Part shown: positions 43,586-60,022 of the stretch, piece after piece
Position numbering within the stretch: the first letter of the stretch is position 1
Layout: every line of letters starts with the position of its first letter
From: Dactylosporangium sp. AC04546
GTDB taxonomy: Bacteria > Actinomycetota > Actinomycetes > Mycobacteriales > Micromonosporaceae
Reading direction: 5' to 3'
Assembly (NCBI RefSeq): GCF_022095675.1
Contig: NZ_JAHYSG010000009.1
Coordinates: 62,001 to 126,000 of the forward strand
Length of the DNA stretch: 64,000 nt
Notes under the pieces: generated by a model
Told to the model about the DNA's origin: nothing
What the model saw: only the letters and a program-made list of their open reading frames with translations
Database searches by the model: none
Made by a program: the position numbers and the translations under genes

Positions 43586-43704
43586 ACCCTTCATCGATGT
43601 AGGGCGAGGGCGTCGGGTCGTGCACCACGGCGGCGGCAACGTGCATCGGCGTATCCGGGGACCGAGCGCCGCGGGTTCTGACATCACCGACCATCCACCG
43701 GGCC

Positions 43705-43745
43705 GTCAACGCACCTCTTGACGAGTTGTCTACGCTGGTGTTGAC
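43705..43745. promoter_or_regulatory. regulon operator pair A (upstream of amidohydrolase)
   Basis: Two sites of the form GTCAA-N8-TTGAC lie 23 bp apart. Site A1 at 43705-43722 is GTCAACGCACCTCTTGAC with perfect arms; site A2 at 43728-43745 is GTCTACGCTGGTGTTGAC with one arm mismatch. They lie 126 bp before the amidohydrolase start. I find no convincing -10 here. Confidence 0.65.
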
Positions 43746-43870
43746 TGCGGACCAACGAGCCACTGCCCGTCGCTACCTGGTGATGGCCAAGTGCTGTCCG
43801 TGGCGCCTTGGACGAGTGCGGCGACGGGCCATCACAGTGCGCCCGGCGAAGTCATGCAGGAGGGACCGCC

Positions 43871-44998
43871 GTGGAGGACGACGTCTTCATCATCGACTCT
43901 CTCGTACACGCACTGAACTGGACCGAGGAGAACTGGGCGGACCCTGTCGCCGCCGGGTCGTCTGCTGAGGCCGCCGCCTATACAGCCGCGCACCAGGGAT
44001 CCGGCGCCTACGACATGCCCCGGGAGCTCTTCCTGCGCGACTGGACGCCGGGGGACTCCGCGAACCTTCTCTTCCGAGAGAGCACGACAAGTGTCGGAGT
44101 CTTCAACCCGCAGCCGTTGTTCGTGTTCAAGGACGGCCAGACGTCCGTCGAGAAGGCGATCGAGGCGATCCGCAGGTACCCCACGCGCTTCATCGGGGCG
44201 TACGCCGCCATCGACCCGCTGCGCGACGGCTGGCGGTCATACCTTGCCGAGCAGGTCGACGCGCTCAAGCCCCTGGGGCTCAAGGTCTATCCGGCAAGCT
44301 GGCAGGAAAAGGGCATGCAGACCTGGGGCCTGAACGACCCCAAGGTCGCGTTCCCGCTGTTCGAGCACGCCCTCGAACTGGGCATCCGGCACATCGCGAT
44401 CCACAAGGCGCTGCCGATCGGACCGATGGAGTACCGCGGCGCCTTCGGCCCGTCCGACGTCGAAGGGGCGGCGGCCCGGTTCCCCGACATCGAGTTCGAG
44501 ATCGTCCACGGCGGGATGTCCTTCACCGAGGAGACGGCCTGGCTCTTGGCGAAGTTCAAGAACGTCCACATCAACCTCGAAAACATGAACATCGTGGTTG
44601 CGCGACGGCCGAAGACCTTCGCCAAGATCCTGCTGTCGCTGCTCCATGTCGGCGGGAACACGGTCTACGAGCGCATCCATTGGGGGACCGGCACCTTCCA
44701 GTTCCACCCGCGACCGTGCATCGAGTCGTTCCTCGACTTCGAGTTCCCCGAGGATCTGCTCGAGGAGACCGGCCTCTACCACCCGGTCGAACAGATCACC
44801 CTCGACCACAAACGGGACATCCTCGGCCGCAACTTCGCCCGGCTGCACGGCCTTGACATCGCGGAACTCAAGCGGAACATCGCCGGCGACGAGTTCAGCC
44901 GCCCGGACGGCGAGCCGCTGCCGGCCCCGTACTCCACGCTCGACTGGATCCCACCGGACGTGCACGCGAGGACCTTCACCCCCCTGGGTGCCAGGTGA
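43871..44998 (+). CDS. Amidohydrolase-family protein (monooxygenase-operon type)
   Basis: This is a 375-residue TIM-barrel protein. The N-terminal metal site is unusual: DSLVHALNW in place of D-x-H-x-H. Later segments (LKVYPASW, IAIHKALPIGP, FEIVHGGMSF, RIHWGTGTFQF) keep barrel histidines. Such proteins, together with a DUF59 partner, occur in binuclear-iron propane monooxygenase operons of actinomycetes, but no such oxygenase is visible here. GTG 43871 is preceded by GGAGG at 43859-43863, which decides the start. The stop overlaps the next start (GTGA). Operator pair A lies upstream. Confidence 0.78.
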   Translation: MEDDVFIIDSLVHALNWTEENWADPVAAGSSAEAAAYTAAHQGSGAYDMPRELFLRDWTPGDSANLLFRESTTSVGVFNPQPLFVFKDGQTSVEKAIEAIRRYPTRFIGAYAAIDPLRDGWRSYLAEQVDALKPLGLKVYPASWQEKGMQTWGLNDPKVAFPLFEHALELGIRHIAIHKALPIGPMEYRGAFGPSDVEGAAARFPDIEFEIVHGGMSFTEETAWLLAKFKNVHINLENMNIVVARRPKTFAKILLSLLHVGGNTVYERIHWGTGTFQFHPRPCIESFLDFEFPEDLLEETGLYHPVEQITLDHKRDILGRNFARLHGLDIAELKRNIAGDEFSRPDGEPLPAPYSTLDWIPPDVHARTFTPLGAR

Positions 44999-45369
44999 CC
45001 CGCGGCTGGTCGCTGCCCGGTGACCTGGCCCCGGACGTGGAGCGGCACCTCGATCAGATTGTCGACCCGTGCAGCACGGCCAGCGTTCTTTCGATGAGCA
45101 TCCTCGCGATGGGGCTGATTCGTGACGTGACGTTCTCGGACGATGGCGTGCTCACCGTGCATCTCCGGCTGACGTCACCGTCCTGCATGATGGTGGGCTA
45201 CATCGCGCGTGAGGCGACGGCGCGCCTGCGAACCCTTCCCGGGGTGACCGAGGTGCTCGTCGGGCCCGACGAAGGGCTGGATTGGGATCCGTCCATGATG
45301 GACGCCGCTGTGGCGCAGGAGCGCAACAAGCGGCTCCGGCTGCTCGACCTGAGCAACGTCATCGCCTGA
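44995..45369 (+). CDS. DUF59/MIP18-family metal-sulfur cluster assembly protein
   Basis: This 124-residue protein carries the DUF59 core: IVDPCSTASVLSMSILAMGLIRDV, then VHLRLTSPSCMMVGYI, where the Cys is the likely functional ligand, and GVTEVLVGPDEGLDW. DUF59 proteins help mature iron-sulfur or iron enzymes. Its likely clients in this regulon are the amidohydrolase or the ferredoxin (inference). GTG 44995 overlaps the previous stop. The stop is one base from that of the convergent aldo-keto reductase gene. Confidence 0.82.
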   Translation: MTRGWSLPGDLAPDVERHLDQIVDPCSTASVLSMSILAMGLIRDVTFSDDGVLTVHLRLTSPSCMMVGYIAREATARLRTLPGVTEVLVGPDEGLDWDPSMMDAAVAQERNKRLRLLDLSNVIA

Positions 45370-45370
45370 C

Positions 45371-46327
45371 TCAGGACACCAGGCCCGCGAAGTCCATCTC
45401 AGGCGCCGACTGCGCAATCGCCCGCATCTCAATCAGATCGTCCGCAGTGAGCTTCAAGCGCATGGCGGTCTGTAGCGCGTCGATGTGCGCTGGAGCCTGT
45501 ACACCGACCAGCGGTACGACCGGTGCGGCCCCGGAGGCGGCCCACGCGACGGCGAGGTCGGCAAGTCCGACGCCGTGCCGCTCCGCGATCGTCGCGAGCT
45601 TGCCGGCCGCCTGAACGCGCATGGCGTAACGCTCACCGGAGAAGTCCGGGGCGCTGCGGCGGAAGTCGTTCTCCGCGAACGCGGGCTCGGGCCCGAAGGT
45701 GCCGGAGAGGAAGCCCTGCGCGAGCGCCGCGTATCCCATGACCATGATTCCGTTGCGGCGGGCGAACGGCAGGACCTCATCCTCGACGCCCCGGCTGAAC
45801 AGGCTGTACGGCACCTGGATGGCGTCCAGCTGCGTGGTCTGACGAAACGTGGTCATCTGCTCGACCGTGTAGTTCGAGACTCCGACGTACCGCGTCAGCC
45901 CCTCGTCGACGAACGACTGCATCGCTCCCGCGACCTCTGGCAGCGGAACGTCGGGGTCGTACCAGTGCACGAGGTAGTAGTCGAGATGCTCGATGCCGAG
46001 CCGGGACAACGACTTGGTCAGCGATGCGCGCAAGAACGCGGGCCGCGAGTTGGGCGCGAACGGCGTGGCCGACCCCTCGCGGTGGCGCAGCTCGAGGCCG
46101 CCCTTCGAGCAGAGCACGAGGCTGTCGCGGTCGGCGACGAGCTCGCGTGAGAACAGTTCACCGAGGACGGACTCGGCGCGTCCGTACGCATGTGCCGTGT
46201 CGAAGAACACCAGGCCCTCGGTGACGCCGCGGCGCAGTGCGGCCTTGGAGCTGTCAAGGTCGCTGCCCCAGGCCGCGGCCAGCGTGTACGTTCCCAGGCA
46301 GACCGGGGGCAGGCTGAGGTTCGTCAT
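45371..46327 (-). CDS. Aldo-keto reductase
   Basis: This is a 318-residue (alpha/beta)8 NADPH-dependent reductase. FFDTAHAYGRAESVLGELF supplies catalytic Asp and Tyr, LCSKGG contains the lysine, YYLVHWYDPDVPL has the His region, and YVGVSNYTVEQM follows. It reduces a carbonyl of an unknown pathway intermediate or runs in the oxidative direction. ATG 46327 overlaps the thioesterase stop (ATGA), so the two are co-translated under the divergent promoter region B. Confidence 0.88.
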   Translation of the reverse strand: MTNLSLPPVCLGTYTLAAAWGSDLDSSKAALRRGVTEGLVFFDTAHAYGRAESVLGELFSRELVADRDSLVLCSKGGLELRHREGSATPFAPNSRPAFLRASLTKSLSRLGIEHLDYYLVHWYDPDVPLPEVAGAMQSFVDEGLTRYVGVSNYTVEQMTTFRQTTQLDAIQVPYSLFSRGVEDEVLPFARRNGIMVMGYAALAQGFLSGTFGPEPAFAENDFRRSAPDFSGERYAMRVQAAGKLATIAERHGVGLADLAVAWAASGAAPVVPLVGVQAPAHIDALQTAMRLKLTADDLIEMRAIAQSAPEMDFAGLVS

Positions 46328-46956
46328 GCCGCGTCCTCGCGGAGGATGACCCACAGGCCCTCGGCCGTGGCAAGGACATCCTCGCCGAGGCACAGATCGC
46401 CTTCCAGGAAGATCTTGCGACGCTCGGTCTTCGTGACGCGACCCCTGACCCGCAACGGCGTGCCGATCGGGGTGATCTTGAGGTAGTTCACGTGGAGGTA
46501 TGCGGTGCGGGTAGGCGGACCTGAGTTGGCGAGCCGGCCGAGGCACTCGTCGAACAGCATCGCGATCGCACCACCGTGCGCGGCGGAGCCGCCACCCAGG
46601 TAGAAGGGGGAGAACGCGACGGATCCCTCGACATGTTCGCTCGAGAGGCTTGTGAGCTGGACCGGGAGCAGGAGCGGGTGGCCGCGGTTCTCCGCGTCGC
46701 CGCGGAGCCCGGAGTGCTGTCGGCCCGGCTCGACCCGGCTGTCGCCCAGTGTGCCGGCGGCCTGTCCGATCAGCGCCCGCGCGGCCTGCGCCACCGCAGG
46801 CGACGGGTCGGAGCAGGTGACCAGGTCCTGGAGCTCACGTAACGCGCTCACCAGCTCGACGTAGGCGGTGCCGCCCGGTGCGAATCCGGAGGTGTCGAAA
46901 CCCCAGAACTGGCGCGGATCGGCGGTGGAATCGGGCATCGCTGGTTCTTCGAGCAC
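46324..46956 (-). CDS. PaaI/hotdog-fold thioesterase
   Basis: This is a 210-residue protein with an extra N-terminal region of about 100 residues before a hotdog domain: GSVAFSPFYLGGGSAAHGGAIAMLFDECLGRLA, which has the HGG and acidic catalytic residue, and TAYLHVNYLKITPIGTPLRVRGRV. It probably hydrolyses an acyl-CoA of the pathway. GTG 46956 is chosen because GGAGG (46970-46966) precedes it by nine bases; ATG 46938 is the alternative. Confidence 0.83.
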   Translation of the reverse strand: MLEEPAMPDSTADPRQFWGFDTSGFAPGGTAYVELVSALRELQDLVTCSDPSPAVAQAARALIGQAAGTLGDSRVEPGRQHSGLRGDAENRGHPLLLPVQLTSLSSEHVEGSVAFSPFYLGGGSAAHGGAIAMLFDECLGRLANSGPPTRTAYLHVNYLKITPIGTPLRVRGRVTKTERRKIFLEGDLCLGEDVLATAEGLWVILREDAA

Positions 46957-46992
46957 GGCGGCCGGCCTCCTACGGGTCAGGGCTGCTGAGTT

Positions 46993-47044
46993 GTCAATGT
47001 ATGCGTTGACGAAGCGGCCGACAAGAATCTACATTGGTGTTGAC
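46993..47044. promoter_or_regulatory. regulon operator pair B with divergent promoters
   Basis: Site B1 at 46993-47010 (GTCAATGTATGCGTTGAC) has perfect arms; site B2 at 47027-47044 (ATCTACATTGGTGTTGAC) has a degenerate left arm. Rightward promoter: TTGACG 47006-47011, 18-bp spacer, TACATT 47030-47035. Leftward promoter: TTGTCG 47024-47019, 17-bp spacer, TACATT 47001-46996. B1 thus covers the rightward -35 and leftward -10, and B2 covers the rightward -10. A repressor here would silence both the P450 gene and the thioesterase/aldo-keto reductase pair. Confidence 0.75.
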
Positions 47045-47068
47045 GCAGTCACACAGAGGGAGCCGCAC

Positions 47069-48337
47069 ATGCCTGACAGTGCGAGCCAGGTGCTCGACGC
47101 CGATGGGATCGACCTGGACGACCTCTATGGGGATCTTGCAACGAACCACCCCGACGTCTACTACGCACACGTCCGCAAGGCGGATCGTGTCTACTACAAC
47201 CGGCGCTGGGGTGGGTGGATCGTCACCGGCTTCGACGAGGTGGCGGCGGGCTACCGCGACCATGCCCGGCTCAGCTCGGAACGCATGGCCGGCCCGTGGG
47301 GTGAGAAGAACAACCGGCAGAAGGGCTCAGGGGAGCTGTCGGCCGTCTTCAAGGTGATGGCGTCGTTCTTCGGCTGGATGGACCCCCCGGATCACACCCG
47401 CTTCCGCAAGCTCCTCCAAGCGGCGTTCACACCGGTCAGCCTGGAGGATATGCGCCCACGGGTCGGCGAGCTCGTTCGCGAGTACGCCGCGGGCATCCCG
47501 GACGGCGCCCCGTTCGACTTCATCAACCGGTTCGCCTTCCATCTGCCGGTGACGGTCATCTCGGAGTACCTCGGCGCTCGCGTGGAGGATCGGCACCTGA
47601 TCGGGGAGTGGTCCGAGGATCTCGGCCACACCATCTTCGCCAGCAAGAACGGCATGACGGTCGATGAGCGCGCCAGGCTGGGGGAGCGGGCGATCAACAA
47701 CTTCATCGCCTACTTCACCGAGATCATCGAGGATCGCCGCAGAAGCCCGCGGGACGACCTGATCTCGCGGCTCGTCCTCGCTGAGCCGGACGGCGATCCC
47801 CTCACCCATGAGGAGATCGTCGCGCAGAGCATCGTGATGCTCTTCGCCGGTCACGAGACGACCACCAACCTGCTGGCCAATGGCATGGTGGCCTTCGCGC
47901 GCTTCCCCGAACAGTGGCGCAACATCCGAAAGGACCCTGCACTGGTCCGGCCCGCGACCGAGGAAATGCTGCGGTTCGACGGGCCGATCGGTGCTCAGGG
48001 CCGATGGGCCAGGACGTCGTTCGAATTCGGCGGAAAAGCAATTCGCGAGAACGACCGCGTCATGCTCGTTCAATGGGCGGCCAATCGTGACCCGGAGGCG
48101 TTTGAGGCTCCGGACACCTTCGACATCACGCGGAAGCGTATTCGACATTTGGGCTTCGGTCACGGCATTCACACCTGCCTGGGGTCGCCGTTGGCCCGTA
48201 TCGAGGTGCAGGAGACCCTCCGGTATCTCACCGGGCGGTATGGCTCAGTGGAACTGGCGACCGAACCGCTGACCTACAAACCGACGCTGACGTCGCGTAG
48301 CTTGACCAAGCTCGACGTCGTTCTGCAGCCTGCTTGA
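47069..48337 (+). CDS. Cytochrome P450
   Basis: This is a 422-residue soluble bacterial P450. The I-helix AGHETTTN lies near residue 260, the ExxR motif is in EEMLRFDGP, and the heme loop FGHGIHTCLG carries the cysteine ligand near residue 370. FGWMDPPDHTRFRKLL is the typical C-helix region. It should hydroxylate the substrate using the ferredoxin and reductase encoded at 61275-62663. ATG 47069 follows AGAGGGA. It is transcribed from the operator-covered promoter B. Confidence 0.94.
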   Translation: MPDSASQVLDADGIDLDDLYGDLATNHPDVYYAHVRKADRVYYNRRWGGWIVTGFDEVAAGYRDHARLSSERMAGPWGEKNNRQKGSGELSAVFKVMASFFGWMDPPDHTRFRKLLQAAFTPVSLEDMRPRVGELVREYAAGIPDGAPFDFINRFAFHLPVTVISEYLGARVEDRHLIGEWSEDLGHTIFASKNGMTVDERARLGERAINNFIAYFTEIIEDRRRSPRDDLISRLVLAEPDGDPLTHEEIVAQSIVMLFAGHETTTNLLANGMVAFARFPEQWRNIRKDPALVRPATEEMLRFDGPIGAQGRWARTSFEFGGKAIRENDRVMLVQWAANRDPEAFEAPDTFDITRKRIRHLGFGHGIHTCLGSPLARIEVQETLRYLTGRYGSVELATEPLTYKPTLTSRSLTKLDVVLQPA

Positions 48338-48452
48338 CGGCCGGTCGCGGCCAACTGTCGAGGGATCGAGCGAAAGGGATGCGCTATAGTGCCAGCGGAC
48401 CGGCTCGTGCCAGCAGCCGGTCGCGGCGGTTGCGAGATCGGGGTGTACGACG

Positions 48453-49106
48453 TTGTCGAGCGGAATCGGTCGGCGTCGCCAGGCGGCGCGCTCGGGTGGG
48501 CGGGACTCGTACCAGGAGCGCCGTCGTAAGCTGATCGATGCCGCCGCCAAGGTCTTCCAGGAGAAGGGCTACGGCGCCGCCAGCTTCGGCGACGTCGCGA
48601 ATGAGCTCGGCTCGGATCGGGCATCGCTCTACTACTACGTCTCCAGCAAGGAAGAGTTGTTCCACGCCGTGGTCTTCCATGCCGCGGAGGAGAACGTCCG
48701 GCTGGCCGAAGAAATCCGCGACAGTGATGCCCCAACCGCCGTAAAGCTCGAGCGGCTGATTACGGCACTGATGCTGTCCTATGAGAAGCACTATCCGTAC
48801 CTCTTCGTCTATGTTCAGGAGAAAATGAGCCTCTTCGGCCCGGAAGAGGACAGTTCAATCTGGGCATCGGATATGTGGGACCTGAACCGGCGCTACGAGG
48901 ACGTGGTGGTCGGTGTGGTCGAAGAGGGCATGAAGGAAGGCGTCATCAAGTCGCTCGGGCGTCCACGTGTCGTGGCCTACGGCATCATCGGCATGGTTGC
49001 GTGGACACACCGATGGTTCCGTCCCGAGGGGCCCTCCACCGGCGAGGAGATCAGCCGCGCGTTCGCCGAGATGGTGATGCGCGGGGTGCTCGCGGACAAG
49101 AGCTGA
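48453..49106 (+). CDS. TetR-family regulator, candidate master repressor of the P450/CoA regulon
   Basis: This is a 217-residue protein. The N-terminal HTH spans about residues 20-65 (RRKLIDAAAKVFQEKGYGAASFGDVANELGSDRASLYYYV in two parts), followed by a helical C-terminal ligand domain like that of KstR2-type regulators. The first in-frame start is TTG 48453. A TATAGT at 48385-48390 may be its -10. It is the only regulator in the block bearing the TGTCAAC-N6-GTTGACA sites and is the natural candidate to bind them. I see no such site in its own upstream region, so it may not be autoregulated. Confidence 0.87.
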   Translation: MSSGIGRRRQAARSGGRDSYQERRRKLIDAAAKVFQEKGYGAASFGDVANELGSDRASLYYYVSSKEELFHAVVFHAAEENVRLAEEIRDSDAPTAVKLERLITALMLSYEKHYPYLFVYVQEKMSLFGPEEDSSIWASDMWDLNRRYEDVVVGVVEEGMKEGVIKSLGRPRVVAYGIIGMVAWTHRWFRPEGPSTGEEISRAFAEMVMRGVLADKS

Positions 49107-49111
49107 ACCCA

Positions 49112-49161
49112 CCGGCGGCACGCGTCCGCCGGCCGTCAACGCGCGGTTGCCGCCCGCGCGT
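49112..49161 (+). terminator. tandem hairpins after the TetR gene
   Basis: CCGGCGG/CCGCCGG (49112-49118 with 49126-49132) and ACGCGCGG/CCGCGCGT (49139-49146 with 49154-49161) form two short GC-rich stems with seven-base loops, directly after the TetR stop. The first may act as a terminator before the next promoter. Confidence 0.5.
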
Positions 49162-49229
49162 GCTTTCGTGTGTCCATCGCCGCCCCCCATTTGTTGGCGT
49201 TCTGCCTGGTCAGGGGTCTCTTCTCAGTT

Positions 49230-49284
49230 GTCAACGCGGTTCTCGACAGGGGTGTTGACAGATTTGGAAGCACGCTCGTAACGT
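49230..49284 (+). promoter_or_regulatory. regulon operator pair C and promoter of the first binding-protein gene
   Basis: Site C1 at 49230-49247 is GTCAACGCGGTTCTCGAC; the overlapping site C2 at 49242-49259 is CTCGACAGGGGTGTTGAC. The promoter is TTGACA (49255-49260), 18-bp spacer, TAACGT (49279-49284). The right arm of C2 is part of the -35 box, so repressor binding would block polymerase. Confidence 0.7.
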
Positions 49285-49347
49285 CTGCGCTACACGCAGG
49301 TCGGTGACCCGGGTCACCCACTGCCGTAGAACCCCAGGAGGGGTGTG

Positions 49348-50547
49348 ATGCGCAGAAACCTCGTTATCGCGGCAGGATTGAGTCTGCTGCTTCTCACTGC
49401 GACGGCATGCGGCGGAACTGGCGACAGCGCAGGTGGCGCTTCGTCGTCCGAACCCATCAAGGTCGGGGTGGACCTCGACCTCTCAGGCCCGTTCTCGATC
49501 GGTGGTCAGGGCGCGTTGAAAGGCATCAAGGCCTACTTCGACGCGGCGAACAAGTCCGGCGGCATCGCCGGCCGCCAGGTGCAACTGATCACCTTGGACA
49601 GTGCGGCGGACGTCAACCGCGCCCTCAGCAACGTCCAGAAACTCATCAACCAGGATCAGGTCGACGCGCTCCTCGGTGTCTCCGTCAGCAGCATCTCGGA
49701 GGCCCTGGACGACGTGGTGACCGAAGCCAAGATCCCGCTCGTCTCGGTCGCGGCCGCGCCGAGCCAGATCTTCCCCAAACCCAGTGCCTGGGTCGTCATG
49801 GCGCAGTCGGTGCAGAACCAGCAGGTCGGCCCGACCGTCGAGCTGATCGCGAAGCTCGTCCCCGGCACGCCGAGGGTGGCGTACATCCATTTCGATTCGG
49901 CGGCGCAGCATGGGTTCGGTGACGGTCTGTCCAAGGCGGTGCAGCAGCGTGGCTGGACGTTGGCGGCGAAGGAGATCGTGCCGTTGACGGCGAGTCCGGA
50001 CGTTCGGGCGCAGGCGTCGAAGCTGGTCGCGGCGCAGCCGGACGTGGTGGTCAGCCTGATGACGGACAAGAACTCGAAGCTGTTGCAGGAGACGTTGCGG
50101 GTGCAGGGGTTCAAGGGTCCGATCATCCAGAACCCTGACACCGGGCCGGACATCCTGAACCAGATCAACGACCCGGACTTCTACCTGATGACCCACTCGT
50201 ACATCGACAACACGCCGAACGACAAGATCACCGGCGACGAGAACTGGGCCAAGATGAAGAGCGCGTTCGACGCCGCCGGCCTACCGGTCGGCACGGCCTA
50301 CGCCGTCCGCGGCTACCTGAATGCCTTGGTGCTCGGCACCGCGCTCGAACAGTGCGGTGGGTGCACGGGCGAGAAGCTGCGCGAAGCCCTCGTGGGCGCG
50401 ACGGTCCCGGCCAACGGCATCACCCCGGGCGATCTCAGCTTCACTGCGGACAGCCATCAGGGCGTCAAGGGCGTGCCGATCTATCGACGCAACAACGGCG
50501 TCGAACTGGTCGGGGACTTCAAGACCGGTACCGGGCTCACCGGTTAG
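49348..50547 (+). CDS. Liv-type ABC transporter substrate-binding lipoprotein, copy 1
   Basis: This 399-residue lipoprotein has lipobox ATAC (lipidated Cys21). The family 6 binding-protein pattern is visible: VGVDLDLSGPFSIGGQGALKGIKAYFDAANKSGGIAGRQ (in two pieces), RALSNVQKLINQDQVDALLG and the C-terminal GYLNALVLGTALEQCGGCTG. ATG 49348 follows AGGAGG at 49336-49341. Such proteins carry amino acids, but in catabolic operons also aromatic and other carboxylic acids. It stands alone under promoter C. The middle third (49870-50251) is almost identical in DNA to the next gene, while the rest differs clearly. Confidence 0.91.
   Translation: MRRNLVIAAGLSLLLLTATACGGTGDSAGGASSSEPIKVGVDLDLSGPFSIGGQGALKGIKAYFDAANKSGGIAGRQVQLITLDSAADVNRALSNVQKLINQDQVDALLGVSVSSISEALDDVVTEAKIPLVSVAAAPSQIFPKPSAWVVMAQSVQNQQVGPTVELIAKLVPGTPRVAYIHFDSAAQHGFGDGLSKAVQQRGWTLAAKEIVPLTASPDVRAQASKLVAAQPDVVVSLMTDKNSKLLQETLRVQGFKGPIIQNPDTGPDILNQINDPDFYLMTHSYIDNTPNDKITGDENWAKMKSAFDAAGLPVGTAYAVRGYLNALVLGTALEQCGGCTGEKLREALVGATVPANGITPGDLSFTADSHQGVKGVPIYRRNNGVELVGDFKTGTGLTG
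49870..50251 (+). repeat. 382-bp near-identical block, copy 1
   Basis: It matches 51393-51774 at every base but one (G at 50002, A at 51525, giving Val versus Ile). The block is internal to both binding-protein genes, in the same frame, and ends abruptly on both sides in diverged sequence. Its codons favour TTG, CGT and GGT more than the flanks. Confidence 0.97.
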
Positions 50548-50870
50548 GCCCGGCTCGACACTGGGCGGCGGGCCGTGAGACGTACGGCCGCTGCGTGCCC
50601 GTCGCCTCCCGAGGTCGGCATCGGCACCACCGAGGTTGACCAACTCGGACATGAACGAAGGCGTCAGGACTCGGCGCCATCGCTTGACGGAGCGGATCCG
50701 CATCAGGCGACTGCCCGTCATCACTTGCTGGCTGAGCTGGTAAAAGACCACTCTCGCCGCATCCTTCAACACATCTGTTGACAGTTCCCCGAGGTGCTCG
50801 TAACCTCATCGAAACGCAGCGCAGGGTGGCGCCGGTGGGCGTTCTCCTCGCTGGAAACAGGAGGGCATCG
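50548..50870. other. 323-bp gap between the two binding-protein genes
   Basis: No gene is supported. GGCCCG (50547-50552) and CGGGCC (50569-50574) could form a weak terminator just after the first gene. Operator D and a promoter lie at 50765-50806, and the Shine-Dalgarno of the second gene ends the region. Confidence 0.6.
50765..50806 (+). promoter_or_regulatory. regulon operator D and promoter of the Liv/CoA operon
   Basis: Operator: TTCAACACATCTGTTGAC at 50765-50782, one mismatch from perfect arms. Promoter: TTGACA (50778-50783), 17-bp spacer, TAACCT (50801-50806). The -10 neighbourhood GCTCGTAACCT repeats GCTCGTAACGT of promoter C, so the two promoters share more than the operator. It should drive the genes from 50871 to about 59933. 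Confidence 0.75.
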
Positions 50871-52067: not shown

Positions 52068-52098
52068 AGGACACGAACCAGCAACGAACGGATCGACG

Positions 52099-52977
52099 AT
52101 GACTCGAGATCTCAGCACCCTGTTGATCGGCACGGTGATCGACGGATCGCTCTACGCGATCATCGGCGTCGGCTTCGTGATCCTCTTCCGATCCACCGGC
52201 GTCATCAACTTCGCGCAGGGGGCGTTCATGGCGCTCAGCGGTTACCTCTACCTGGTGGCGGTGAACGCCGGGCTGCCATGGGCGCCGGCGCTCGCCGCGG
52301 CCATCGTGATGTCGGGCCTGATCGGCGCCCTTGCCTACGTGCTGCTGTTCCGCAGGCTCGTGGGTGCCGAACTCTTCCCGCTCGTCATCGCCACCCTCGG
52401 GCTGTCCACCGTGCTGACCGTGGTGATGATGCTGATCTGGGGACCAGAGATCCGCAGCCTGCCATCGCCGTTCCAGATGCGGCCGCTGTTCTTCATCGGT
52501 GGGATGCCGGTCACCGGGCTCGACGTCTTCGTCGTCGTCCTCGGAGTGGTCGCCATCGGCGCCGTCACGTGGATGGTGCAGGGCACGAAGGTCGGCACAC
52601 GCATGCGTGCCGTGGCCAACAGTTCGCTGTTGTCCGGCCTGATGCGGATCGACGTGCACAGGGTCTCCGCGCTCGCCTGGGGGCTGTCGGCCGGGCTGAC
52701 TGCGGCGGCCGGCGTGGCGTACGCGCTGCGGACGACGATCGACCCGGTGACGGCACAGGGCTTCGGCCTCGTCGCGTTCGCCGCCGTGCTGATCGGCGGC
52801 CTGGACTCCCTTCGCGGGGCGATCACCGGCGGGTTCATCCTCGCGTTCGTCCAGACGGCCGCCGTGCTGATCCTCGGCGGTTCCTGGTCCGAGGTGACCG
52901 CGTACGTCGCGCTGCTGGCGATCCTCTTCACCCGCCCGCAGGGCATCTTTGGCAGCCCCAGCGTGGTGCGGCTATGA
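52099..52977 (+). CDS. Liv-type ABC permease (LivH-like)
   Basis: This is a 292-residue membrane protein: GSLYAIIGVGFVILFRSTGVINFAQGAFMAL (in two parts) is the LivH N-terminal signature, and GLVAFAAVLIGGLDSLRGAITGGF matches the conserved C-terminal loop. It forms one half of the channel with the LivM part of the next protein. The stop overlaps the ATG 52974 option of the next gene. Confidence 0.92.
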   Translation: MTRDLSTLLIGTVIDGSLYAIIGVGFVILFRSTGVINFAQGAFMALSGYLYLVAVNAGLPWAPALAAAIVMSGLIGALAYVLLFRRLVGAELFPLVIATLGLSTVLTVVMMLIWGPEIRSLPSPFQMRPLFFIGGMPVTGLDVFVVVLGVVAIGAVTWMVQGTKVGTRMRAVANSSLLSGLMRIDVHRVSALAWGLSAGLTAAAGVAYALRTTIDPVTAQGFGLVAFAAVLIGGLDSLRGAITGGFILAFVQTAAVLILGGSWSEVTAYVALLAILFTRPQGIFGSPSVVRL

Positions 52978-53003
52978 CCGTCGTCCGCCAAGGAGCGTCA
53001 CCC

Positions 53004-54821
53004 ATGACAAGGCTGCTCGGCTACGCCAACCGCTTCGGCTGGGTGGTCTTCCCTATCGCGTTCCTCGCGGTCATCGTCTCCGACGACCGCTACTGGCAGT
53101 TCGTGGCCGGCCAGGTCATCATCTACGCGCTCAGTGCTCTCGGCCTGGACTGGCTGATGGGGCGGGCCGGCGTCGTCTCCCTCGGAAACGGCGCGCTGAT
53201 GGCGGCGGGCGCCTTCAGCGCCGCGTACATCTCCCGCGAGGAATGGGCTTCGTTCCCGCTGACGCTGCTGATCGTGACGCTCATGGGCTGCGTCCTCGGC
53301 CTGTTGATGAGCATCCCGGCGGCCCGGCTGCGCGGGATCTACTTCGCGCTCGTCACGCTCGCGATGCACTTCATCGTGGTGTTCATCGGCCACCAGTATC
53401 AGACGACCTCCACGCGGTATCTGGGCGGCGTCCCGGTCGCCCGGCCGGAGCTCTTCGGCTATCGCCTGGAGGCCGGGAGGCCGTGGCTGCTCTTCCTCGG
53501 GGTGCTGCTCGGCCTCGTCTGGTTGCTGCTGCGGAACATGTACGCCACCAACCCGGGCCGCATGTGGCTCGCCATCCACGAGAACGAACTGGCCGCCCGC
53601 ACCATCGGCGTGGCCTCGCCGCGGTGGAAGCTGACCGCATTCGTCGGCAGTTCCGGGCTGATCACGCTGTCCGGGGGGCTGATGGGTTACTACACCGGCC
53701 GGGTCTCGGCCGACACGTTCACCCTGACGTTCGCCATCAGCTTCGTCGTCATGGTGATCGTCGGTGGCCTGCGCTCGATTCCCGGTGCGTTGTTCGGGGT
53801 TACGGTGGTCACCGTCGCACCGCTGCTGTTCGGTCAGTTCGCGCGGGACCTCGCCCCCGGCTCCGCGGGAGCCATGGGCTGGCTCAGCGACAACGTGTTC
53901 TTCATCAACAGCGGCCTGTTCGGTGTCTTCGTCCTCGTCGTGCTGCTCTACCTGCCGCGCGGGGTCGTGCCGAGTCTGCGGGAGTGGGTGCGCTCTCGGC
54001 TCGTGCGCAGATCCCGCGCCGTGGCGGATCCGGTCGCAGGCGAGCAGTTGGGCGGCGTCGCGGCCGGCGTGCACGCGGATCCGTTGCTGCGCATCGATGG
54101 CCTACATCTCGCTTATCGCAACGGAGCCCGCGCCGTCAACGGGTTGGCGCTGACCGTCGGCAAGGGCGAATTGCTGGCCATCGTCGGACGCAACGGCGCC
54201 GGCAAGTCCAGCCTGCTGCGGGCGGTGACCGGCTTCTACCGGTCCGAAGGTGTGACCGTTCGCGGCCGGATCGCCATCGACGGCCGGGAAGTCCTCGGCA
54301 GGTCACCGTCGAGGACGTCGGCGCTCGGCATCACGCTCGTCCCGGAGCGCGACAAGGTCTTCGCCGGCCTCACAGTCGGCGAGCAGCTGCGCCATGTCGG
54401 GAATCTCGACGCAGCCCGGGAGGCGATGCCACGCGAATGGGAGTTCCTGCAGAGCAGGTGGGATTCGTACGCCGGACTCCTCAGCGGCGGTGAGCGGCAG
54501 ATCCTGGCGCTCACCCTCGCCGCCAGCCTGCGGCCGCGACTCCTGCTCATCGACGAGATGTCGCTCGGGCTCTCCCCGGTGGCAATTGACCGGGTCGCGT
54601 CGGCGATCCGGGAGCTGCACGCCCGGTCCGGTGTGTCGATCGTGCTCGTGGAGCAGAACGTCGACGTGGCCAAGCGGCTCGCCGACCGGGTCCTGCTGAT
54701 GGAAGCGGGGACGTTGCACCCCGTCGAAGAGCAGTCCGAGGCGGGCAGACAGCCGAGCGGTGCGGTCGAGGTGCTCGCGGGCGCATCTGACGCGGAAGGG
54801 GACCGTGATGCTCGAGCTTGA
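53004..54821 (+). CDS. LivM-LivF fusion: permease and ABC ATPase in one chain
   Basis: This is a 605-residue protein. Residues about 1-340 are a LivM-type permease (IIYALSALGLDWLMGRAGVVSLGNGALMAAGA, split here; later VMVIVGGLRSIPGALFG). Residues about 355-580 are a LivF-type ATPase with Walker A GRNGAGKSS near 394, VPERDKVFAGLTVGEQL, signature LSGGERQ near 492, Walker B LLLIDEM near 513 and H-loop-like EQN. Separate genes are usual; LivM-LivG fusions are the more common joined form. I chose ATG 53004 because AAGGAG precedes it; ATG 52974 (ATGA overlap with livH) would add ten residues. Confidence 0.9.
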   Translation: MTRLLGYANRFGWVVFPIAFLAVIVSDDRYWQFVAGQVIIYALSALGLDWLMGRAGVVSLGNGALMAAGAFSAAYISREEWASFPLTLLIVTLMGCVLGLLMSIPAARLRGIYFALVTLAMHFIVVFIGHQYQTTSTRYLGGVPVARPELFGYRLEAGRPWLLFLGVLLGLVWLLLRNMYATNPGRMWLAIHENELAARTIGVASPRWKLTAFVGSSGLITLSGGLMGYYTGRVSADTFTLTFAISFVVMVIVGGLRSIPGALFGVTVVTVAPLLFGQFARDLAPGSAGAMGWLSDNVFFINSGLFGVFVLVVLLYLPRGVVPSLREWVRSRLVRRSRAVADPVAGEQLGGVAAGVHADPLLRIDGLHLAYRNGARAVNGLALTVGKGELLAIVGRNGAGKSSLLRAVTGFYRSEGVTVRGRIAIDGREVLGRSPSRTSALGITLVPERDKVFAGLTVGEQLRHVGNLDAAREAMPREWEFLQSRWDSYAGLLSGGERQILALTLAASLRPRLLLIDEMSLGLSPVAIDRVASAIRELHARSGVSIVLVEQNVDVAKRLADRVLLMEAGTLHPVEEQSEAGRQPSGAVEVLAGASDAEGDRDARA

Positions 54822-55569
54822 TGGCGTGTCTCTCGCGTTCGGCGGCATCAAGGCCGTCAACGACGTCACGATGCATATATCGGAAGGGATGTGCTTCGGC
54901 CTGATCGGGCCGAACGGTGCGGGCAAAACGGCGCTGCTGAATTGCATCTCCGGCGTCTACCGGCCCGCCGGGGGCGAGATCCGATTCCAGGGACGGCAGC
55001 TGAACGGGCTGGCACCGGACGTGATCTCCGCGCTCGGCATCGGCCGCACCTTCCAGTCGATGGAGCAGTTCGAGCAGTTCCTCGTCATCGACTACCTGCT
55101 CATCTCCCGGACCCGGGAGCTGTCGCGGTCCTCGACGCTCGCCGCGCTGCGGTGGCCGCCGGTCATCCGCCGGGAGCGCGCGGAGCGGCATCGCGCGATG
55201 GAGACGCTGGAGGCGCTGGGGCTCGAGACGCACGCGCAGCACCGCCTGTCGGAGGTGCCGTACGGCACCCAGAAGCTGATCGACATCGCGCGGGTCCTGT
55301 GCTCGGACGCCACGTTCGTGCTGCTCGACGAGCCCACCTCGGGCACCACGTCGAGCGAGCGGCCAGGCATCTCCAAGGCTCTGGACTTCCTGCTGGGCGG
55401 CGAGCGGACCGTCGTCGTGGTCGACCACGACGTCGATTTCGTGACACGCCACGCCGACCGGGTCGCCGCTCTCGATCAGGGCCGACTGATCGCCGAGGGC
55501 ACCAGCCGTGAGGTGATGGCCGACCCGGTCGTGCGCCGGATCTACCTGGGGCTGGTGCACGATGCCTGA
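54808..55569 (+). CDS. Liv-type ABC ATPase (LivG-like)
   Basis: This is a 253-residue ATPase with Walker A GPNGAGKTA, Q-loop GIGRTFQSMEQF, signature region VPYGTQKLIDIARVL, Walker B FVLLDEPTSG and H-loop VVDHD. The D-loop stretch after Walker B (TTSSERPGISKALDF) departs from the usual GLNPxE pattern of LivG. With the LivF part of the fused protein it would make an asymmetric ATPase pair. ATG 54808 follows AAGGGG and overlaps the previous gene by 14 bp. Confidence 0.9.
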   Translation: MLELDGVSLAFGGIKAVNDVTMHISEGMCFGLIGPNGAGKTALLNCISGVYRPAGGEIRFQGRQLNGLAPDVISALGIGRTFQSMEQFEQFLVIDYLLISRTRELSRSSTLAALRWPPVIRRERAERHRAMETLEALGLETHAQHRLSEVPYGTQKLIDIARVLCSDATFVLLDEPTSGTTSSERPGISKALDFLLGGERTVVVVDHDVDFVTRHADRVAALDQGRLIAEGTSREVMADPVVRRIYLGLVHDA

Positions 55570-56326
55570 GCCGCGACACGAGGGTCGCGCCCTGGTGGTC
55601 ACCGGGGCCGGAAGCGGTATCGGGCGAGCCACCGTGCTACGCCTGCTCGCCGAGGGGGCCCGGGTGCTCGCATTCGACATCGTGCCCGAGCGACTCAGGT
55701 CGCTGGAGGAGGAGGCGGGCGAGCGAGCTCGGCTGGTCACCGTCGCCGGAGACGTCGCCGCTCAGGACGATGTGGAACGCGGCCACGCGGCGGCGCTCTC
55801 ATCGTTCGGCGGTTACGACGGGCTGGCCAACGTCGCCGGGGTCATGGACTGGTTCCTGCCCGCGCACGAGGTCGATGACGAGACCTGGACGCGCGTCATG
55901 GACGTCAACGTCCTGGGGACGATGCGCACCAGCCGCCTGGCTCTGCGGCACTTCCTCCAGCGCGGTGCCGGATCGATCGTGAACGTGGCTTCCGAGGCGG
56001 CGACCCGGGGTGCAGCGGGCGGATTCGCGTACACCGCTGCGAAGCACGCCGTCCTCGGGCAGACGCGGTCGATCGCCTGGGCCTACCGGGGCGACGGCAT
56101 CCGGTGCAACGCGGTGTGCCCCGGCGCCGTCGACACCGACCTCGGCAGCTCGGCGCAGCCGCGCAGCGACTTCGGACTCGAGCGGGTCCGGCCGATCCTC
56201 CGCCTGCGCGGTCCGAGCGTTCATCCCGACCGGATTGCCGGCACCATCTCATGGCTGCTGAGCGACGAGGCGGACAACGTCACAGGGGCACTACTCCTTG
56301 CCGACGGCGGCTGGGCCGCCGGCTAG
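55562..56326 (+). CDS. SDR-family oxidoreductase
   Basis: This is a 254-residue classical SDR with TGAGSGIG, NVAGVMDW in the NNAG position, Ser in NVASEAATRG, catalytic YTAAK and C-terminal LLADGGWAAG. It overlaps LivG by 8 bp. It may oxidise the hydroxyl introduced by the P450s, or a beta-hydroxyacyl intermediate. Confidence 0.9.
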   Translation: MPEPRHEGRALVVTGAGSGIGRATVLRLLAEGARVLAFDIVPERLRSLEEEAGERARLVTVAGDVAAQDDVERGHAAALSSFGGYDGLANVAGVMDWFLPAHEVDDETWTRVMDVNVLGTMRTSRLALRHFLQRGAGSIVNVASEAATRGAAGGFAYTAAKHAVLGQTRSIAWAYRGDGIRCNAVCPGAVDTDLGSSAQPRSDFGLERVRPILRLRGPSVHPDRIAGTISWLLSDEADNVTGALLLADGGWAAG

Positions 56327-56347
56327 CGCTCATCAGAAGGGGATCAC

Positions 56348-57889
56348 ATGATCGTACGGGACATCATGAAACGGGCGGTCGACCGGTTCGGCGACCACGT
56401 GGCGCTCACCCAGCACGGCAAGTCCCTGACCTTCGGTGAGGCGTGGGAGCGCGGCTGCCGCATGGCCAACCTGCTCAGCGCGAGCGGGGTGCGCCCAGGC
56501 GATCGCGTCGCGTCACTGGAGGACAACACCATACCGGCAGCCGATCTGCTGCTTGCCTGCACCATCGGGAACTTCGTCCGGGTGCCGTTGTACGTCCGGA
56601 ACGCGACCGCATCGCACATCCACATGGTCGGCCACACCGGCGCCACGGCGTACATCGTCGATGCCGACCACGCCGCCGATCGCGACGAGATCGTCGCCGC
56701 CTGCCCTGACCTCAAGTTCGTCATGACCCGCGGCGATGACTACGAGGACGTACTCGCCGGCTCGGATCCGACCGACCCGCAGCCGAAGGTCTCCGAGAGC
56801 GACTACCACATCATCCGGCACACTGCGGGCACGACCGGGCTGTCCAAAGGTGTGGCCTTCACCAACCGCCGGTGGATGTCGGTGGCCCGGGACTGGCTCT
56901 ACGGCTGGCCGCCGATCGAGCCCGGGGACACCTTCCTGCACCAGAGCCCCATCTCGCACGGCTCCGGCTACTTCTTCACGCCGACCTGGATGGCCGGCGG
57001 GCGCAACTACCTGGTTCGCAAGCTCGTACCGGACGAGGTCCTCGCGCTTGTCGAGCGCGAGCGCATCACCCACATGCTCGGCATCCCCACCATCCTGGGC
57101 ATCCTGCTCAAGCACCCGGACGCGGGGGAACGCGACCTGTCGTCGCTGAAGGCCATCACCGTCAGCGGCGCGCCGATCGCCGACGACACCATCCGATTGG
57201 CGTATCAGACGTTCGGGGACGCGCTGTACACCTCGTTCGGCCAGACCGAGATCAACCCGATCACCTTCATGCACGTGAAGGAGTGGCTGAGCGAGGTTCC
57301 CGGGTCGAATCCGCTGCGCTCCTGCGGCCGGGCGCAGCACTTCGGGCAGATGAAGATCATCGACCCGGCCACGCACGAGGAACTCCCGATCGGGCAGGAG
57401 GGCGAGATCGCCGCCAAGGCGGACGGCCAGATGGAGGCCTTCTGGGGCGATCCGGAGGCCACCGAGGAGCGGATCGTCGACGGCTGGGTGTTCACCGGCG
57501 ACGTTGGAAAGATCGACGCAAATGGATATCTATACATCATGGACCGGAAGAACGACATGATCGTCTCCGGCGGGTTCAACATCTACCCGGCCGAGCTGGA
57601 GAACGTCATTCTCAGCCATCCGGACGTCAGCGAGGTGGCCGTGTTCTCCATCCCGCACGAGCGGTGGGGTGAGGCACCGGCCGCTGTCTGTGTGGTCGAC
57701 GAAGACTCGACGCTCACCGGTGACGAGATCGTCGAGCTGGTGAAGGACAGGCTCGGGTCCTACAAGAAACCGGCCGAGGTGATCGTGCGGACGGAGCCGC
57801 TTCCCAAGAGCGCGGCCGGCAAGCTCCTGAAACGCCAGCTGCGTGAGCCGTACTGGGCGGGTCACGACCGACGCGTCGCGGGCAGTTGA
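56348..57889 (+). CDS. AMP-forming acyl-CoA synthetase
   Basis: This is a 513-residue ANL-family ligase. The P-loop-like HTAGTTGLSKG lies near residue 158, SFGQTE is the A5 motif, WVFTGDVGKIDANGYL is followed by DRKNDMIVSGGFNIYPAE, and SAAGKLLKRQL carries the adenylation lysine. It should activate the imported or oxidised carboxylic acid as CoA ester. AGAAGGGG precedes ATG 56348. Its presence with a CoA-transferase and two thioesterases marks this as a CoA-ester pathway. Confidence 0.92.
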   Translation: MIVRDIMKRAVDRFGDHVALTQHGKSLTFGEAWERGCRMANLLSASGVRPGDRVASLEDNTIPAADLLLACTIGNFVRVPLYVRNATASHIHMVGHTGATAYIVDADHAADRDEIVAACPDLKFVMTRGDDYEDVLAGSDPTDPQPKVSESDYHIIRHTAGTTGLSKGVAFTNRRWMSVARDWLYGWPPIEPGDTFLHQSPISHGSGYFFTPTWMAGGRNYLVRKLVPDEVLALVERERITHMLGIPTILGILLKHPDAGERDLSSLKAITVSGAPIADDTIRLAYQTFGDALYTSFGQTEINPITFMHVKEWLSEVPGSNPLRSCGRAQHFGQMKIIDPATHEELPIGQEGEIAAKADGQMEAFWGDPEATEERIVDGWVFTGDVGKIDANGYLYIMDRKNDMIVSGGFNIYPAELENVILSHPDVSEVAVFSIPHERWGEAPAAVCVVDEDSTLTGDEIVELVKDRLGSYKKPAEVIVRTEPLPKSAAGKLLKRQLREPYWAGHDRRVAGS

Positions 57890-59076
57890 ATCAGCGTGGG
57901 CTCTGGCCGCTGGTCGGCAGGGCGATCGCGCTCGACCTCAACTCCCTCCTGCCGGTGGGCCTGACCGGCGCGCTCGGCGTGCTCATCGTGCAGGATCTCA
58001 ACGCGCCCGAGTCGGCGGGTGGGATGCTGGTCGGCGCCTTCTTCGTCGCCGGAGCGTTCTTCATTCTGCTCGCCGCCTCGGCGATCGACCGGTACGGCTG
58101 GAATGCCGCCGCACTCGCAGGCCAGGCCACAACAGCGGTGGCGCTGCTGGCCTGCGCGGCGACACCGCACCCATGGGGGCTGCTGCTGATCGGGCTGAGC
58201 CTGGCCGGGATGGGCTCGTCCATCTCGCAGCCCGCGACCAGCGTCCTGCTCACCGAGCACGTGCAACCGCGGCGGCGCGGGTTCGCGATGAGCGCGAAGC
58301 TGGCGGCCGTGCCGGCCGCCCTGCTGCTGGCCGGAATCGCCGTGCCGGTGCTGGGCGAGACAGTCGGGTGGCGCGCCTCCTTCGTGATCGCCGCACTCTT
58401 CCCGCTGTCCGGTGTGGTCCTGCTGCTGAGGTTCCGGCCGGTGCCGACCGATTCGGTGCTGGGGGCCGGCCGGGACGTCGGCGAGCTGCGGCGGCCGCGT
58501 CATCGGGCGTTGTGGCTGGCCGGCACCGGCATGCTACTCGGCTCGATGCTGCCGGGCGTGGTGCTCGCCTTCATGGTCCCCTCGATGGTCGACGTGGGCT
58601 TGACGCCGGGCGAGGCGGGCCTGCTCTTCGCGGTACTCAATGTGACGAGTGTGCTCAGCCGCGCCGCCGTCGCCGTGCTCGCGGACAGCCCGCTCTTTCG
58701 CGGGAACGCGGCCATCGTGGCCATGATGACCCTCGGCGGGCTGGGTTCGGCGCTGGTCGCCGTCCCGGCGCTCGGCACGGTCCTGGCCGGGGCGTTCTTC
58801 GCATTCAGCATGGGCTGGGGATGGACCGGGCAGGCGTTCGCCCTGGCGCTCAGGACGTTCACCGAGAGCCCCGGTGGCGTCGCGTCGGTGATGCAGTCGG
58901 GCGGCATGGCGGGGTCGGCACTCGGGCCGATCGTCGGCGCGGCCGCGGTGTACTTCTGGGGGCTGCCCGCGGCCTGGATCCTCTCCGCCTCCGCGTCCGT
59001 CCTCGGTGGCCTGGCGTTCTGGTCGCTGCCGTCGCCGGGCACCGTTGCCCATCGGACCCGGGAGGAGCCCGCATGA
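57886..59076 (+). CDS. MFS transporter
   Basis: This is a 396-residue, roughly 12-helix MFS protein (GRAIALDLNSLLPVGLTGALGVL, LLLIGLSLAGMGSSISQPATSVLL, VMQSGGMAGSALGPIVGAAAVYFWG). The start appears to be TTG 57886, overlapping the synthetase stop as TTGA. It resembles CynX/NimT-like carriers in length. It may provide a second uptake route or export a by-product alongside the Liv transporter. Confidence 0.85.
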   Translation: MNQRGLWPLVGRAIALDLNSLLPVGLTGALGVLIVQDLNAPESAGGMLVGAFFVAGAFFILLAASAIDRYGWNAAALAGQATTAVALLACAATPHPWGLLLIGLSLAGMGSSISQPATSVLLTEHVQPRRRGFAMSAKLAAVPAALLLAGIAVPVLGETVGWRASFVIAALFPLSGVVLLLRFRPVPTDSVLGAGRDVGELRRPRHRALWLAGTGMLLGSMLPGVVLAFMVPSMVDVGLTPGEAGLLFAVLNVTSVLSRAAVAVLADSPLFRGNAAIVAMMTLGGLGSALVAVPALGTVLAGAFFAFSMGWGWTGQAFALALRTFTESPGGVASVMQSGGMAGSALGPIVGAAAVYFWGLPAAWILSASASVLGGLAFWSLPSPGTVAHRTREEPA

Positions 59077-59933
59077 CACATGTCGAGCCACTGGCCGTCT
59101 CGCTCGCGGTGGAGCCGATCGGAACCGACGTCTTCCGGCCCACGGCCCCGTCCAGGCTCGCGACCGCCGACGCCCGCGGCTCGGAGTCGAGCCGCGCCGG
59201 TGACCGCAGGCGCGTCTTCGGCGGGCAGCTGCTCGGCCAAGGATTGCGGGCCGCGTGCGCGACCGTCGACGAGGGGCGCCTGCCGCGTTCGTTGCACGCC
59301 TACTTCATCGCCGCGGCCGATGCCGGCAAGCCGTTGGACTACCACGTCGAGCGGGTCCGCGATGGGCGCGGCGTCTCACACCGCCGGGTCAAGGCCGTCC
59401 AAGGGGCCCGGGAGCTGTTCTCGCTCGAGGCGTCGTTCGACGCCGCGTCACCCGGCTTCGCCTACGAGGACCGCCCGTCGCCGGGAGCCGGTCCGGACGA
59501 GCTGCCGACGGCCTCGGGTGAGGCAGCTCAGCTGTGGAGCGGCGTGCAGGTGAAATTCGCCGAGGCGGGTGCCGGTGCGCACACGGCGCATCGGCGGTTC
59601 TGGATGCGGGCCGCGCAGCCTCTGGGCTCCGATCCGGTGCTGCACGCCTGCGCGCTGGCGTACATGAGCGACCTCTCGCTGCTGCGCGCGGCGCTCGAGC
59701 CGGACGTGGTCCAGCAGGCCGACCGGCCCGTCCGGCTGGCGTCGCTGGACCACGCGATCTGGTTCCACCAGGCGTCGCGCGCCGACGCCTGGGTGCTGTG
59801 CGACAGCATCTCGCCGGTCGCCCACGGTGGCCGCGCCCTGGCCCTCGGGCACCTCTTCGACCCGGCCGGACGGCTCGCGTTGACGGTGGCGCAGCAGGGC
59901 ACGCTACGGCTGCGCCCGGAGGCGCTTCACTAG
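59073..59933 (+). CDS. TesB-family acyl-CoA thioesterase
   Basis: This is a 286-residue double-hotdog protein. RRVFGGQLLGQGLRAACATV and LHAYFIAAADAGKPLDYHVERVRDGRGVSHRRVKAVQ (in two parts) match the first hotdog. LDHAIWFHQASRADAWVLCDSISPVAHGGRALALGHLFD carries the second hotdog, with the Asp-His region. GGAGGA precedes ATG 59073, which overlaps the MFS stop. It ends the operon driven by promoter D and probably frees CoA from pathway or dead-end esters. Confidence 0.9.
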   Translation: MTHVEPLAVSLAVEPIGTDVFRPTAPSRLATADARGSESSRAGDRRRVFGGQLLGQGLRAACATVDEGRLPRSLHAYFIAAADAGKPLDYHVERVRDGRGVSHRRVKAVQGARELFSLEASFDAASPGFAYEDRPSPGAGPDELPTASGEAAQLWSGVQVKFAEAGAGAHTAHRRFWMRAAQPLGSDPVLHACALAYMSDLSLLRAALEPDVVQQADRPVRLASLDHAIWFHQASRADAWVLCDSISPVAHGGRALALGHLFDPAGRLALTVAQQGTLRLRPEALH

Positions 59934-59999
59934 TCAACATGACCGTTGACAACCATCACCGACCGCACCATGATGAGGTTTGTCAACACATCCGCTGAC
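59933..59999 (+). promoter_or_regulatory. regulon operator pair E and promoter of the second P450 operon
   Basis: Site E1 at 59933-59950 is GTCAACATGACCGTTGAC, with perfect six-base arms; E2 at 59982-59999 is GTCAACACATCCGCTGAC. The promoter is TTGACA (59946-59951), 17-bp spacer, CATGAT (59969-59974). E1 covers the -35 and E2 covers the predicted transcription start. E1 begins at the stop of the thioesterase gene. Confidence 0.8.
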
Positions 60000-60022
60000 A
60001 AGCGGTCGTTCGGGAGGTAGCA

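Follow-up and report, generated by a model that had tools for sequence, protein, structure and literature searches.

A candidate operator, TGTCAAC-N6-GTTGACA, for a TetR-family regulator in a gene block of Dactylosporangium sp. AC04546

Operator sites and the block that carries them

The window analyzed here is a stretch of 64,000 nucleotides of Dactylosporangium sp. AC04546 (contig NZ_JAHYSG010000009.1, abbreviated C9; C9:62001-126000), taken from an assembly of 13.0 Mb in 348 contigs. From about 43.7 kb it contains a block of genes for an amidohydrolase, two cytochromes P450, transport proteins and acyl-coenzyme A (acyl-CoA) metabolism, together with a TetR-family regulator encoded at 48453-49106, and the palindrome TGTCAAC-N6-GTTGACA recurs in the gaps ahead of these genes (Table 1). 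The palindrome is read here as the operator of this TetR protein, which would repress six promoters and be released by a CoA thioester. To this reading, in which we infer binding, repression, autoregulation and inducer, we give a probability of roughly 0.83.

An earlier note on this DNA had listed nine 18-base-pair (bp) sites of the form GTCAA-N8-TTGAC, and a check of the sequence found every one of them where it had been placed. Three have perfect arms of 5 + 5 bases, as the note had said (43705, 46993 and 59933), four have one arm mismatch (43728, 49230, 50765 and 59982) and two have two mismatches (47027 and 49242). The last two are weak by mismatch count alone; under a matrix from other genera, described below, they reach 20.3 and 15.4 bits. 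When as many as two mismatches are allowed, the window has 34 matches to the pattern compared with 12.8 expected, and none of 100 shuffles got to 34. The estimate that ten fixed bases would occur about once per million positions disregards the GC-rich (guanine- and cytosine-rich) background, and the count of five promoter regions has to be raised to six, as a further pair lies beyond the window (67313 and 67336). The proposal of a single regulon was itself supported by comparison, but its extent had been incomplete, the regulon continuing to that pair. Exact GTCAACN6GTTGAC has just two occurrences in the whole genome, at C9:121933 (59933 in the window) and C9:129314 (67314 in window coordinates, beyond its end), and both belong to the cluster. 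With at most two mismatches, TGTCAACN6GTTGACA was found at 26 places, 8 of which lie inside 23.6 kb (C9:105.7-129.3 kb) and 18 elsewhere.

The TetR protein is 99% identical to a protein of Dactylosporangium sucinum and 82% identical to one of Jiangella endophytica; within the family it was found at E ≤ 1e-30 in only 2 of 200 genomes, the source genome and one of the same genus. DNA similarity with D. sucinum begins at 43702, two bases ahead of operator 1a, and that with Jiangella extends to ∼77507, beyond the window, where the run's last gene ends. The resulting ∼34-kb block (43702 to ∼77507), common to two orders, may, to judge from these alignments, have moved as one unit. A contamination of 11.5% is listed for the assembly; against this figure stands the presence of the block in D. 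sucinum at 95 to 97% DNA identity. Sites are kept at all six promoters in Jiangella and at the five visible promoters in D. sucinum. The spacing of the paired sites is constant between the genera at the amidohydrolase promoter (23 bp) and the second P450 promoter (49 bp), in D. sucinum and Jiangella alike. At the first P450 promoter the two Dactylosporangium genomes share a distance of 34; Jiangella has 44, and its second site does not fall at the position that the alignment would give. The outer arm of operator 3a is conserved in Jiangella.

Table 1. Candidate operators and genes of the block (window coordinates; HTH, helix-turn-helix; ORF, open reading frame; ABC, ATP-binding cassette; MFS, major facilitator superfamily)
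Feature	Position	Strand	Location	Basis or remark
Operator 1a	43704..43723		upstream of amidohydrolase gene	15.6 bits; kept in D. sucinum and Jiangella 23 bp from 1b
Operator 1b	43727..43746			24.8 bits
Operator 2a	46992..47011		divergent thioesterase/P450 promoter region	21.0 bits; right arm TTGACG as -35, TACATT 47030-47035 at 18 bp
Operator 2b	47026..47045		covers the -10 TACATT of 2a	20.3 bits
Operator 3a	49229..49248		8-bp overlap with 3b	12.4 bits
Operator 3b	49241..49260			15.4 bits; right arm TTGACA as -35, TAACGT 49279-49284 at 18 bp
Operator 4	50764..50783			26.1 bits; right arm TTGACA as -35, TAACCT 50801-50806 at 17 bp
Operator 5a	59932..59951		upstream of P450 (b)	27.1 bits; 49-bp pair spacing also in D. 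sucinum and Jiangella
Operator 5b	59981..60000			20.8 bits
Sixth operator pair	67313, 67336 (L016:7313-7332, 7336-7355)		before acyl-CoA dehydrogenase gene, beyond window	matrix matches
ROK-family regulator	42317-43585		ends 118 bases before operator 1a	ROK match and weak HTH matches
Amidohydro_2 protein	43871..44998	+		PF04909; start from heuristic caller
FeS_assembly_P protein	44995..45369	+		PF01883
Aldo/keto reductase-like protein	45371..46327	-		NCBIfam, below cut-offs
4HBT thioesterase-superfamily protein	46324..46956	-		PF03061
Cytochrome P450 (a)	47069..48337	+		PF00067; start from heuristic caller
TetR-family regulator, proposed repressor	48453..49106	+		TetR_N PF00440 and TetR_C_24 PF17932
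ABC substrate-binding protein 1	49345..50547	+		PF13458
ABC substrate-binding protein 2	50871..52067	+		PF13458, matched on longer ORF 50778-52067
Branched-chain-type ABC permease and ATPase genes, three ORFs	52099..55569	+		PF02653 for 52099-52977; other two by eye
Short-chain dehydrogenase	55562..56326	+		NCBIfam, below cut-offs
Acyl-CoA ligase-like protein	56348..57889	+		NCBIfam, below cut-offs; fatty-acyl- and feruloyl-CoA synthetases among nearest solved relatives
MFS-like transporter	57886..59076	+		NCBIfam, weak
Cytochrome P450 (b)	60023..61234	+		NCBIfam, below cut-offs
Ferredoxin	61275-61463		after P450 (b)	by eye
Ferredoxin reductase-like gene	61473-62663		after ferredoxin	NCBIfam, below cut-offs

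The motif across a TetR clade

The motif was present in 18 of 21 loci whose TetR protein is at least 38% identical to that of the window, compared with 1 of 20 other loci (18 with a more distant TetR protein and two without a full match; the duplicates L078 and L094 were excluded). In a tree of 44 TetR proteins, with rows labeled by locus, 21 motif-bearing rows and three without the motif form one clade with support of 100/97, which covers two phyla, the Actinomycetota and the Pseudomonadota. Candidate variants were seen by eye in clade members lacking the canonical motif, TGTCAAC-N5-GCTGACA and CAACA-N4-TGTTG (L083, upstream of the TetR gene; L084:9605 and 13982).

A matrix was constructed from 50 sites (45 distinct) with up to two mismatches, drawn from 16 loci of other genera that include Nocardioides, Sphingomonas, Novosphingobium, Collimonas, Acrocarpospora and Amycolatopsis. 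Scanned over 80 kb of the window's contig, it gave 12 places above 12 bits, compared with 0.42 expected from 60 shuffles: all nine window sites, 67313, 67336 and a match at 1735. This last (1735-1754, 13.2 bits) is isolated and distant from the cluster. Since the pattern that selected the matrix sites was derived from the window finding itself, all hexamer dyads were also ranked free of any pattern. This de novo ranking took 4,096 hexamers, each with its mirror, at 17 spacers (0 to 16) in 16 clade loci, including three already seen to be without the motif. GTCAAC-N6-GTTGAC came first, with 22 copies in 12 of the 16 loci, and the runner-up reached 6 loci. None of the 16 control loci, whose TetR proteins are more distant (in L042 only a partial match), had it. 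In the clade loci the GTCAAC dyad was observed 22 times at spacer 6, once each at spacers 5 and 15 and never at the other 14.

Whole genomes were also scanned. Ten clade genomes held 31 exact 12-base copies, of which 24 were no more than 30 kb from the TetR gene; in nine of the ten, 29 exact copies were counted versus 3 for the pattern read backwards, and three non-clade genomes held 1, 0 and 0. Of 394 genomes belonging to the class, 7 contained the exact 14-base motif; a TetR match was found in 12 of the 394, and these 12 included 4 of the 7 (Fisher 1.7e-5). The motif read backwards was in 2 of 394 (by count from the list). The earlier note had named equal abundance of the motif elsewhere as a finding that would tell against a regulon; these scans gave no such result, and 58 of 62 sites from 18 sources were intergenic, the other four lying in L087 and L088, where a simple gene caller conflicted with the TetR gene.

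The pattern TAnnnT followed a site arm at 17 bp in 13 and at 18 bp in 12 of 99 site/gene pairs from 13 sources (25 in total), pairs that are partly dependent, as orthologues and both directions were counted and the stray site 1735 was included. It was found in none of the 99 at 14 to 16 or 19 to 23 bp, the next highest counts being 3 each at 38 and 39. On the window's contig a -10 box lies at 17 to 18 bp for operators 2a, 3b and 4 and for site 67313. It is apparent from the sequence that an operator arm often serves as the -35 box. At L089:15940, a -10-like box was seen at 18 bp on both strands, a possible two-way promoter within one operator. Operators were frequently paired, and pair distances were in excess at 20 to 24 bp (8 of 23 compared with 1.4 expected), a range picked after inspection. 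Distances of 12, 23, 34 and 23 (the fifth pair 49) had resembled 11k+1, but helical phasing was rejected (Rayleigh P of 0.39 over 23 pairs, 0.55 for the 20 pairs up to 60 bp and 0.96 for the 15 pairs outside the window; the count excluded the orthologous pairs of L018, L087 and L090).

Proposed mechanism and rival regulators

The N-terminal HTH domain of the TetR protein matched PF00440 at 52.4 bits (cut-off, 24). The predicted structure is all-helical (predicted local distance difference test score, 86.1), with PfmR, KstR2, AibR, FadR and DarR as the nearest solved folds; among these, AibR and FadR were solved with acyl-CoA bound, AibR with isovaleryl-CoA. The KstR equivalog of NCBIfam reached 22.9 bits, far from its cut-off of 280, and no KstR2 model was among the 22 families listed. 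The 115-bp gap ahead of the TetR gene contains no matrix match, and the gene is probably cotranscribed with P450 (a). In the mechanism proposed, a TetR dimer would bind TGTCAAC-N6-GTTGACA at six promoters of one block (∼43.7 to 77.5 kb in window coordinates) and repress them. At least four would be blocked through covering of the -35 box, the arm itself being the -35 hexamer (TTGAC-A/G/T) with the -10 box 17 to 18 bp on. The position of the TetR gene behind the P450 promoter with operators 2a and 2b would make the protein autoregulatory. Release would be brought about by a pathway intermediate, most likely an acyl-CoA thioester, because of the fold neighbors (AibR, FadR and KstR2) and the CoA ligase gene in the cluster.

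Several observations weigh against this account. Near-duplicate or orthologous loci (window/L017, L080/L081, L087/L088 and L089/L090) reduce the independence of the 18/21 versus 1/20 comparison, and 3 of the 24 TetR rows of the clade have no canonical motif nearby. Gathering the loci via the TetR protein tilts the comparison toward it and against an unlinked regulator, a bias from which only the scans of whole genomes are free. One of the 60 shuffles produced a matrix match of 23.1 bits, and a strict TAnnnT at 16 to 19 bp is missing from operators 1a/1b and 5a/5b. DarR, among the nearest folds, binds cyclic di-AMP, so that an acyl-CoA is no more than the more probable inducer. Furthermore, 7 of the 31 exact copies lie away from any TetR gene, and in three genomes the exact motif occurs with no clear clade TetR protein, a number close to the background of the backwards pattern. 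Two of the seven distant copies (G095 C72; G513 C104, with letters identical to G497 C37:45301) are probably due to contig breaks.

These last two observations are what would be expected if an unlinked regulator bound the motif and the TetR gene were merely a frequent neighbor. This appears unlikely, as the motif tracks the TetR clade through two phyla despite differing gene content, and in L020, L022, L024 and L082 sites occupy the space that separates the TetR gene from a divergent gene. The earlier note had called the TetR protein the only regulator in the block, overlooking the ROK-family gene at 42317-43585, though this lies outside the shared block. Its closeness to operator 1a and its ROK and weak HTH matches would allow it to be the cognate regulator. 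It is, however, outside the DNA common with D. sucinum (in Jiangella the contig stops too close to the first site for comparison), and no ROK relative at E ≤ 1e-3 was found in the 43 loci searched, although the motif is present in 18 of 21 clade loci, making its involvement extremely unlikely. With the motif tracking the clade, six promoters kept in Jiangella and the ROK gene outside the shared block, the sequence comparisons support the local TetR protein as the putative regulator of the motif, in one regulon.

It could also be argued that the sites are mere strong -35 boxes (TTGACA) with a chance mirror copy, given the 25 of 99 site/gene pairs in which one arm acts as the -35 box. Enrichment at spacer 6 alone, seen in 12 of the 16 clade loci and in none of the 16 controls, already contradicts this, and 74 of the 99 pairs have no TAnnnT at 17 to 18 bp though their sites score as operators; we consider it very unlikely. 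Similar half-sites occur in BirA sites predicted in delta-proteobacteria, TGTcAACC-N14-GGTTgACA (PMC545781). The solved P450 closest to P450 (a) is moreover the biotin-biosynthesis enzyme 3ejb (E 1.1e-64), with TamI and others scoring nearly equal. The spacing contradicts a site of the biotin-repressor type, with 16 bases between TGTCAAC and GTTGACA as opposed to 6 here; the GTCAAC dyad at spacer 16 was found in 0 of 16 clade loci, and no other biotin-type family was found among the flanking genes scanned, a part of all. Its chance is practically negligible.

Known systems, gene content and wider meaning

PfmR of Thermus thermophilus, which we take to be TTHB023 (both names are used in the paper on it), is the best solved relative of the TetR protein by sequence (E 1.4e-25) and by fold E-value. 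Its 16-bp consensus is different, (a/c)Y(g/t)A(A/C)YGryCR(g/t)T(c/a)R(g/t) (PMC7022988). KstR2, the TetR repressor of cholesterol ring catabolism in M. tuberculosis, has a fold near the model (template modeling score of 0.77 to 0.79 by query, 26% identity). It acts through a small number of operators around its gene, between catabolic operons that diverge (PMC3068626), and its effector is the CoA thioester HIP-CoA (PMC7807495). Its genes differ, and its operator, AnCAAGnnCTTGnT, has 14 bp with a 2-bp spacer (PMC3068626), which does not agree with the top de novo dyad found here, GTCAAC-N6-GTTGAC. Mycobacterial KstR is likewise a TetR repressor of a catabolic regulon, with a half-site containing AAC...GTT and an operator overlapping a promoter box, but this operator is TnnAACnnGTTnnA, with a 2-bp spacer (PMC1995591).

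MbdR of Azoarcus (3-methylbenzoate) represses several promoters of one catabolic cluster from operators over the -10 and -35 boxes and is induced by the first CoA thioester of the pathway. It is a weak sequence match (E 3.6e-6), and its operator is ATAC-N10-GTAT (PMC4424350). In the present cluster, too, several promoters have candidate operators lying across promoter boxes. SRTF1 of Pimelobacter simplex (progesterone) is likewise a TetR regulator, serving a steroid-responsive island and having a 22-bp palindrome (PMC7062782). The operator of EdcR is different (PMC8700777), as is Lcin1 of N. simplex, TCCCGGT-C/G-ACCGGGA (PMC7593942). No report of a TGTCAAC-N6-GTTGACA operator was among the open-licence full-text matches listed. 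The candidate operator appears to be new, while the kind of system, a TetR repressor with a set of operators in a catabolic cluster, is already known from KstR2 and MbdR.

Beyond the genes of Table 1, the block encodes CoA transferases, hydratases, an acyl-CoA dehydrogenase and a protein resembling aldehyde dehydrogenases, which was named by its sequence. Together with the amidohydrolase, the two P450s, the transport system and the CoA ligase, these point to what is probably a catabolic pathway for some hydrophobic acid. The closest solved P450s and ligase do not single out a particular compound, and for the amidohydrolase no solved relative was found at E ≤ 1e-5. In other clade loci, where 25 distinct flanking proteins, a part of all, were scanned, the operator precedes PtlE-like monooxygenases (below the curated cut-off), presumably of the Baeyer-Villiger type, luciferase-like or P450 monooxygenases, amidohydrolases, cyclase-like proteins and beta-oxidation genes.

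Operator and promoter might form a portable unit, TGTCAAC-N6-GTTGACA with an arm as the -35 box, kept clade-wide in Actinomycetota and Pseudomonadota while the genes underneath change (islands with P450, Baeyer-Villiger-type or luciferase-like monooxygenases); we would give this even odds. If true, a catabolic island would bring repression and a readable promoter along when moving between orders, and the 34-kb block of Dactylosporangium and Jiangella may be a case of this. The motif would be an operator code within a TetR subfamily of 581 protein clusters at E ≤ 1e-20. Regulons of members sharing the operator would be readable from sequence alone, each regulator a candidate biosensor, and a 34-kb uncharacterized catabolic block would be accounted for as one regulon.

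The two substrate-binding genes, paralogues that have otherwise diverged, are alike over 382 bases with one mismatch (49870-50251 and 51393-51774), from either recent gene conversion or an assembly artifact. Their Jiangella counterparts are 84% alike over a 300-base stretch in the same region.

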